NCBI GenBank assembly: GCA_001898385.1
Contig: MKTT01000050.1
Location: 1 to 64,000, forward strand
Source: Planctomycetales bacterium 71-10
GTDB lineage: Bacteria > Planctomycetota > Planctomycetia > Isosphaerales > Isosphaeraceae
DNA: 64,000 nt
Direction of reading: 5' to 3'
Part shown: positions 23,124 through 63,687 of the stretch, piece after piece
Position numbering within the stretch: position 1 is the first letter of the stretch
Layout: every line of letters starts with the position of its first letter
Notes under the pieces: generated by a model
Databases searched by the model: none
Told to the model about the DNA's origin: nothing
What the model saw: the letters and a program-made list of their open reading frames with translations, nothing else
Translations under genes and position numbers: made by a program

Positions 23124-23201
23124 GTCGATTCGCTTCCGATTCGATTGCGGCGTGCGCGTGTGCCTTGGGACTTTGACGGAAGGTCGTACGCTCATGGACG
23201 T

Positions 23202-23378
23202 CTTCCCCCCTCGCGGGGGAAGACAGACGCCGAAGGCGTCAGATGAGGGGGACGCGAAGCGCGGGCCCCGTCGGGATTCGAAGGCCCGTCCGAGCCGGCC
23301 CGGGATCCCGACGGCTTTCTCGCTCGTCGTCCCCCTCATCCGGCCCTGCGGGCCACCTTCCCCCGCCAGGGGGGAAGG
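23202..23378 (+). repeat. Dispersed hairpin element, copy 1
   Basis: Begins CTTCCCCCCTCGCGGGGGAA and ends at a CCTTCCCCC/GGGGGAAGG hairpin. An inner hairpin GACGCC-GAA-GGCGTC is at 23226-23240. ATGAGGGGGACG in the left half pairs with CGTCCCCCTCAT in the right half, and a GGCCC-TGC-GGGCC hairpin follows. It lies between divergent genes. Confidence 0.9.
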
Positions 23379-23450
23379 CCGTTACGACGCCCCCTCAACC
23401 TCCGGCGCGATCCGCCAAAATCCAAAGGTACACCCTGGCGGGCGCGGCCC

Positions 23451-24970: not shown

Positions 24971-25150
24971 CTTCCCCCCCTGGCGGGGGAAGGTGGCCCG
25001 CAGGGCCGGATGAGGGGGAGGACAAGCGCGACGGTGGTCGGATCTCGCGGCGGCCGTCTCGGGCGGGCCCTCGAATCCCGACGGGGCCCGTGCTTCGCGT
25101 CCCCCTCATCTGACGCCTTCGGCGTCCGTCTTCCCCCGCGAGGGGGGAAG
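24971..25150 (-). repeat. Dispersed hairpin element, copy 2 (inverted)
   Basis: Same element as copy 1 but on the opposite strand. The GACGCC/GGCGTC inner hairpin and the long-range ATGAGGGGGA/TCCCCCTCAT pairing are present; the middle region (about 25030-25095) differs most. Confidence 0.9.
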
Positions 25151-25264
25151 ACGCTCCTCATCAAATATTCGAACCGTCCGGGCGGACCGCTCGGACCACC
25201 CTTCGGTGTCGCCTCGGCCTATCGCGGCCTCCGCACGCCCGGCACGTTCCTGACACTCCGACGA

Positions 25265-35466: not shown

Positions 35467-35475
35467 TGAGGCGGT

Positions 35476-35652
35476 CTTCCCCCCTCGCGGGGGAAGACAG
35501 ACCCCGCAGGGGTCAGATGAGGGGGACGCGAAGCACACGGCTCGTCGGGGTTCGAAAGCCCGTCCGACCGGCCCGGGATCCCGACGGCTTCCTCGCGCGT
35601 CCTCCCCCTCATCCGGCCCTGCGGGCCACCTTCCCCCGCCAGGGGGGGAAGG
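35476..35652 (+). repeat. Dispersed hairpin element, copy 3
   Basis: Lies between the PSD1-type gene and its DUF1501 partner, so it would be in their shared transcript. Inner hairpin is GACCCC-GCA-GGGGTC (35500-35514), differing from copy 1 on both arms in a compensatory way. Confidence 0.9.
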
Positions 35653-46278: not shown

Positions 46279-46585
46279 TACAGTGGGGGCGCGGACGCCT
46301 CTCGGGCGTGCCTTTGGAATCTGACGGATCGCTTCGCACGTCTTCCCCCCTCGCGGGGGAAGACAGACCGCGAAGCGGTCAGATGAGGGGGACGACGAGC
46401 ACGAAGGCCGTTGGCATCATCGACGGCTCGTTCCAATGGCTGTCGCGAGATCCGACGGCCGTCCGGCGCGTCGTCCCCCTCATCCGGCCCTTCGGGCCAC
46501 CTTCCCCTGCGAGGGGGGAAGGCCGTCAGGATGCCGAATTCCAAAGGGGCGACCCGCCTCTCCCCGCCCTCCTCGGAGCGCCACC
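46279..46585. other. 307-base gap holding dispersed element copy 4
   Basis: Besides the repeat at 46342-46522 there is no gene; the amidohydrolase ribosome-binding region lies at the right end. Confidence 0.6.
46342..46522 (+). repeat. Dispersed hairpin element, copy 4
   Basis: Inner hairpin is GACCGC-GAA-GCGGTC (46366-46380), with both arms changed together relative to other copies. In the middle, GGCCGTTGG pairs with CCGACGGCC where copy 1 has a different but also paired sequence. Confidence 0.9.
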
Positions 46586-54417: not shown

Positions 54418-54490
54418 TGGGCAGGGGGAGAGTTGAACTCCCGACACACGGATTTTCAATCCGTTGCTCTACCAACTGAGCTACCTGCCC
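54418..54490 (-). tRNA. tRNA-Phe (GAA)
   Basis: On the minus strand a 73-base cloverleaf begins GGGCAGG and ends CCTGCCC-A; the D arm is GCTC/GAGC, the anticodon stem ACGGA/TCCGT presents GAA in TTGAAAA, and the T arm is GGGAG-TTCAACT-CTCCC. The 3' CCA is not encoded (ACTT follows). No duplicated 3' end or integrase nearby suggests an att site. Confidence 0.96.
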
Positions 54491-63469: not shown

Positions 63470-63507
63470 GGCGGCGTATTCAAGGGAAGGGCGTTTGCGA
63501 TCGTCGT

Positions 63508-63687
63508 CTTCCCCCCCGGCGGGGGAAGACAGACCCCGAAGGGGTCAGTTGAGGGGGACGCGAAGCACGGGTGCCGTCGGGCTCCGAAGGGCCGCCCATG
63601 CCGGCCGTCGCGAATCCCGAAGGCCGTCCGGCGCGTCGTCCCCCTCATCCGGCCCTCCGGGCCACCTTCCCCCGCCAGGGGGGAAGG
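63508..63687 (+). repeat. Dispersed hairpin element, copy 5
   Basis: Lies between the adaptor and permease genes, within the probable operon. Inner hairpin is GACCCC-GAA-GGGGTC (63532-63546). The left arm ATGAGGGGG is changed to TTGAGGGGG. Confidence 0.9.

Follow-up and report, generated by a model that had tools for sequence, protein, structure and literature searches.

Within a 64-kb stretch of planctomycete DNA, hereafter the window, a palindromic repeat of about 180 bp is present in five copies, raising the question of whether such a repeat is a structured RNA maintained by selection or a mobile element, and, in the latter case, by what means it moves. The five full-length copies of the repeat, further called the module, share their ends and internal order, and all of those listed in the preliminary description were recovered at their places. 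Their positions, together with the outer elements described in the following section as type A, are:

23156-23435, + strand: copy 1, type A MITE with left end 23156-23178, module 23201-23377 and right end 23413-23435; flanking target 8-mers 6/8 identical; orthologous site empty in G001, G002, G004 and G005
24972-25151, - strand: copy 2, only the module delimited; at a synteny break relative to congeners
35475-35650, + strand: copy 3, module about 10 bp 3' of a stop codon; right flank, judged by eye, like a decayed type A end; orthologous site empty in G001, G002, G004 and G005
46304-46554, + strand: copy 4, type A MITE of 251 bp with module 46341-46521; flanked on both sides by CGCCTCTC, an exact 8-bp target duplication; orthologous site empty in G004 and G005
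63507-63686, + strand: copy 5, module in a whole insertion of about 260 bp that lies directly 3' of a stop codon; right flank, judged by eye, like a type F end; orthologous site empty in G001 and G003

The window derives from a draft genome of 7.73 Mb in 158 contigs (G000). A 17-bp motif of the left arm, allowing up to 2 mismatches, gave 254 matches in this genome and 2 for the reversed control, an abundance far above chance, and the family in this Paludisphaera-like planctomycete comprises well over 200 short palindromic pieces of DNA. Full-length modules numbered 71 in 847 kb of G000 tiles, a count that is not scalable to the whole genome, as the tiles were picked for holding copies. Modules were also observed at the ends of contigs C67, C71 and C79, within the first 45 bases, and the 3-kb contig C46 holds three complete modules plus a partial one. 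The draft assembly was probably broken at modules, which would make the copy numbers lower bounds. All five genomes of the same genus (G001-G005) contain many matches each. Outside the genus, the hits were limited to scattered half-units, most of them in G016, which represents another genus of the same bacterial family and where half-units are arranged in tandem with a spacing of about 135 bp (L112, G016:C97, 253-659).

The module is composed, in this order, of hairpin A (TCTTCCCCCC-TCGC-GGGGGAAGA), the 15-nt hairpin B (e.g., GACGCC-GAA-GGCGTC), AGATGAGGGGGA, a core of 53-97 nt, CCCCCTCATCC, hairpin C (GGCCC-TNC-GGGCC) and hairpin D (CCTTCCCCCGCNAGGGGGGAAGG). According to this order, the module can be described as two inverted REP-like half-units placed around a core. 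In RNA structure predictions its hairpins come out as strong, many copies have a CGTC-like flank, and a long-range stem closing the module is a possible fold. The view of the repeat as a non-autonomous, dispersed and palindromic element, free of genes and akin to known extragenic palindromes, was borne out. In G003, half-units of the TTCTCCC type form a compact, REPIN-like inverted pair with about 20 bp between them (L111:3278-3390).

Type A ends and a candidate ISKra4-type partner

Loose matching of either end divided the 71 copies of G000 into 36 of type A, 10 of type B, 4 of type F, 3 of type D and 18 others. Type A elements begin with GGGTGTGCCTTTGGAATTTGGCG and finish with its inverse, forming 23-bp terminal inverted repeats that start with GGG. 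At 41 sampled loci, the elements had a total length of 246-297 bp, with the module and no gene inside, and end pairs among the matches listed are roughly 240-260 bp apart. With up to 3 mismatches, the 23-bp end was matched 96 times across G000 vs 0 in the control, and in the sampled G000 tiles none of the type A ends was found away from a module. An 8-bp direct repeat is located directly outside these ends. In 30 copies, for which frame and length were scanned, its mean identity was 0.725 vs 0.344 in shuffled flanks (z 11.6), and in the 41 loci, with the same frame kept fixed, 0.692 vs 0.335 +/- 0.028. The target 8-mers are exact in 12/41 loci and differ by one mismatch in 9/41, so that 7-8 of 8 positions match in 21/41. 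Such 23-bp ends combined with 8-bp duplications are hallmarks of a MITE transposed by a DDE transposase, and they shift the borders of the element outward by 30-60 bp. The 180-bp repeat is real, but it does not correspond to the mobile unit, and the boundary initially assigned to it was wrong for many copies. Copies 1 and 4 of the window are type A MITEs. Concerning the history of type A elements, distances in the right outer segment correlate with those of the module (r 0.36, p 0.001), while no correlation was found for the left outer segment (r 0.09, p 0.23), indicating a history that is partly joint and partly recombined.

A partner of the MITEs was searched for by scanning 40 genomes with the type A end sequence. 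In G004, which matches P. soli, a pair of ends 1.4 kb apart bounds an insertion sequence of 1,420 bp (G004:C2:10024-11443) with an exact 8-bp duplication, GGTCGGAA. Its relative of 1,410 bp, 86.6% identical over most of the length, resides in G000 itself (G000:C87:52402-53811), also with an exact 8-bp duplication, CCGCGGCC. Ends of the insertion sequences differ from the MITE consensus by 3-5 mismatches in 23 positions, those of the G000 element by 3 and 5. In both insertion sequences the transposase is encoded in two frames offset by -1, and for the main frame the match to NF033572 (ISKra4) has E 6.4e-53. With the frames joined by an assumed frameshift, the two matches had E values of 4.3e-54 (184 bits) and 4.5e-58 (197 bits). 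NF033572 is the clear best match of the partner transposase, with both scores remaining just below the curated cut-off of 205. Mutator-like transposases of the ISKra4 group have been described with inverted repeats of 18-39 bp and duplications of 8-9 bp, with Planctomycetes among the hosts of the group and with -1 frameshifting in the ISMich2 branch (PMC3942029); the published lengths and hosts agree with what is found for type A. The insertion sequence of G004 adjoins the counterpart of a tRNA gene that is located in the window at 54418-54490 on the - strand.

Sites orthologous to copies 1, 3, 4 and 5, i.e., to 4/5 copies of the window, are empty in related genomes, so the insertion of these copies is recent. 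Copy 2, which coincides with the break in synteny between G000 and its congeners, suggests that such repeats may act as rearrangement points.

Many copies are thus MITEs, most likely mobilised in trans by a DDE transposase of the ISKra4 family; the assignment of the type A ends has good support, and the acting transposase is one that we infer. In the mechanism we propose, the transposase would come in trans from the full-length element on contig C87 or from a relative, it would bind the 23-bp ends, move the element and duplicate 8 bp of the target, and later selection would spare only the copies between genes. The module appears to have been packaged more than once, presumably through recombination between shared hairpins, with other copies obtaining type B ends and perhaps D and F ends. 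With type A ends, target duplications, a matching insertion sequence in G000 and empty orthologous sites all directly observed, we assign a probability of about 0.8 to this explanation as a whole, in which modules reside in MITEs, those of type A have ISKra4-type ends and are moved in trans, and packaging of the module happened more than once.

Other end types and bare modules

Type B ends (GTGCTGCGTCGAAAACAT) are for the most part found inside CTTCTCCC...GGGAGAAG hairpins, with the hairpin loop repeated on both sides. Among 19 elements, this loop repeat is exact in 8 at one of the best frames, with a z of about 3.8 that was obtained by scanning frames against a high shared baseline. The type B outer element L238, about 103 bp long, contains only a short central hairpin, L249 is of equal length, and L239, L240 and L245-L247 are type B elements in which another module subfamily occupies the corresponding position. 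Elements of this kind indicate that modules are exchanged. Regarding a full-length partner for type B ends, the matches listed contain no pair at the spacing of an insertion sequence. Type D is represented by three copies, one of them (L074) with an exact 8-bp duplication, and the distinction of end types D and F is tentative. The module sits in at least one end type besides A.

Bare modules are a further form. Outer inverted repeats were found in 0/20 of those inspected in G002, a genome where neither a Y1 nor an ISKra4-type transposase was found. No convincing direct repeats were detected beside the bare modules of G001, G002, G004 and G005, and the z values of 3.3-4.1, each being the best of about 10,000 combinations of end and length per genome, were taken as noise. 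Two G002 modules were compared with congeners and, judged by gap lengths, each is missing from some of them: one (L258:2452-2619) is absent from G001 and G004, the other (L258:13256-13425) from G000 and probably from G004. At the site of the former, modules are present in G002, G000 and G005 and in neither G001 nor G004, a pattern that could result either from a repeatedly used target or from ancestral presence followed by loss. As recognised outer ends are missing in 18/71 copies of G000 and in 20/20 of G002, which speaks against full coverage, the ISKra4 mechanism accounts for only part of the family.

Hairpin pairing and rival explanations

Compensatory changes between copies formed the basis for proposing a preserved fold of several hairpins. 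Three forms of the inner hairpin B (GACGCC/GGCGTC, GACCCC/GGGGTC and GACCGC/GCGGTC), which involve two C-G/G-C swaps, are indeed real and almost always paired, with 5.99 of 6 positions pairing within a copy vs 5.10 +/- 0.08 after swapping arms among copies (500 shuffles, maximum 5.34). The three alleles recur in the majority of outer types and also among congeners, and being common across outer types and species they point to few independent events. For the core, the pairs that RNAalifold proposed from the G000 alignment were doubtful, since this part is misaligned, and arm-swap tests were used instead. In the 71 copies of G000, core arms paired with their own partner no better than with arms drawn from different copies (z -0.3 to -1.8), and swapping within each genome likewise revealed no gain anywhere (z from -3.0 to 1.2). 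The claim that the middle keeps pairing while its sequence changes was hence not confirmed, the example of copy 4 being an anecdote, and what had been seen as covariation of the inner hairpin and the middle is reduced to one hairpin with three alleles and few events.

Could these sequences nevertheless represent a structured RNA or a regulatory element, such as a terminator, an mRNA stabiliser or a small RNA, kept by selection on pairing and only secondarily mobile? The swaps in hairpin B and the strength of the hairpins in predicted RNA folds would be in line with it, as would the stem arms of G002 and G005, which fit best within their own species (12 nt). On the other hand, the core is devoid of covariation within genomes, one-sided changes in reliable helices (about 17 G.T vs 9 A.C in a hand tally) exhibit no significant strand bias, and the sole Rfam match at gathering score over the window is the tRNA. 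Moreover, congener sites are empty, and template-switch repair of palindromes would yield the same hairpin pattern. The genomic neighbourhood, assessed with a crude GC-based gene caller, also agrees poorly with such a role, as neighbours of modules (37 tandem, 16 divergent and 13 convergent pairs vs 246, 89 and 110 for module-free gene pairs) and module orientation (24 opposite, 13 same) are near background. A role as terminator or oriented regulator was rejected on the basis of these neighbour classes. No modules were detected inside genes called in this way, and the intergenic placement with near-background neighbours is in keeping with insertion and subsequent purging from genes. Covariation lends little support to a selected RNA, and we consider the RNA explanation very improbable.

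Two other routes of transposition have to be compared with the ISKra4-type one. The module could be a large dimer of the REPIN kind, transferred in single-stranded form by a Y1 (RAYT-like) transposase that recognises its hairpins. This would accord with the construction of the module as an inverted dimer of REP-like hairpins, with its CGTC-like flanks, which recall the CGTC repeats described elsewhere (PMC3733652), and with five Y1 matches in G000; copies deprived of outer ends would also need some route of their own. However, G002 is rich in copies and has no Y1 match (E 0.001), the stretches examined around Y1 genes contain no module, and type A elements have 8-bp target duplications. Y1 single-strand transposition is not known to leave target duplications. 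For type A this route was rejected, and for the family in general it appears highly doubtful. Accordingly, of the mobilisation in trans initially proposed, the Y1/RAYT variant is unsupported in light of the duplications and the ISKra4-like ends, while the accompanying wording, "other transposase", covers ISKra4. It is also conceivable that the module itself is mobile and prefers existing MITEs and REP-like hairpins as targets, so that the outer ends are nothing but targets. Type B elements with a short hairpin or another subfamily, as well as the abundant and polymorphic bare modules of G002, could be understood in this way. Yet the type B mosaics could just as well have arisen through recombination between shared hairpins, no module-free type A outer element was present in the sampled tiles, distances of the right outer segment and of the module correlate, and bare modules have no adjoining direct repeat. 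We therefore regard independent mobility of the module as rather unlikely. The repeats are ordinary genomic parasites, unusually nested, and not an RNA family.

Wider distribution and known systems

The module also occurs beyond its own bacterial family. Exact matches of the 34-bp half-unit CCCCCTCATCCGGCCCNNCGGGCCACCTTCCCCC include, among those listed, P. soli, Oscillospiraceae (Pseudoflavonifractor, Flavonifractor) and alphaproteobacteria, Shinella among them. Several Oscillospiraceae loci present the whole plan of a hairpin, second hairpin, TGATGAGGGG, spacer and half-unit; in L179, L207, L217 and others, this two-half-unit plan includes a right half-unit identical to that of the planctomycete over 34 bp. 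A 49-nt half-unit matched 254 plasmid records, mostly of Rhizobium and Sinorhizobium and also of Shinella, and most of the plasmid matches among those listed have no annotated feature under them. A literature search with sequence strings returned no evident description of the half-unit, and among the papers listed in searches for related elements, none dealt with planctomycete MITEs or ISKra4-ended MITEs.

Likeness to several known systems can be recognised. Type A elements share with MITEs of the ISKra4 family (p-MULT 4, Mutator-like DDE) the 23-bp ends starting with GGG, the 8-bp duplication and an intact-looking partner with its transposase in two -1-offset frames. The likeness is limited to the ends, as the interior is a REP/RIME-like module in place of an insertion-sequence remnant. 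CGTC-tagged REPs are similar in their short hairpins with CGTC-like flanks, in forming intergenic inverted dimers and in having no dedicated transposase known, whereas in our module each half-unit contains two hairpins, the stem is longer, and the core measures 53-97 nt. In the published description, the CGTC tag stands beside a stem of 8-9 bp beginning with complementary A-T pairs, together with a CCA tail, and Planctomycetes are absent from the listed hosts (PMC3733652); compared by description, the module departs from it in stem and tail, including the first stem bases. The Rhizobium-specific intergenic mosaic elements (RIME) are likewise intergenic palindromic mosaics, and the occurrence of the half-unit on plasmids of Rhizobium, Sinorhizobium and Shinella is a lead towards a possible kinship to RIME. 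Type B elements, which interrupt CTTCTCCC...GGGAGAAG hairpins and have the loop sequence on each side, resemble insertion sequences that target REPs (PMC1525189), but they are themselves miniature and carry a REP-like module. Finally, REPINs moved by RAYTs likewise consist of two REP-like units in inverted order that make up a long hairpin, comparable to the compact pair in G003, and the differences are the lack of a linked Y1, the lack of any Y1 in G002 and the target duplications of type A. The family is consequently a known kind of repeat in a new arrangement, with a REP/RIME-like module inside ISKra4-ended MITEs and at least one other end type.

A broader speculation, which we hold to be improbable, is that the module represents one shared cargo, preserved base for base in Planctomycetota, Bacillota and Alphaproteobacteria, that was repeatedly packaged by different DDE ends, with a further hairpin-recognising enzyme moving it where both Y1 and ISKra4 are absent. 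Since the exact half-unit is present in different phyla, one may in any case ask how repeats of this kind spread over large distances. REP-like palindromes that have no dedicated transposase have long been puzzling, and a partial answer is visible in G000. There, the module travels as the interior of a MITE, and the ends, the duplications and a candidate enzyme come together in a single genome, which makes the proposed relationship directly testable.
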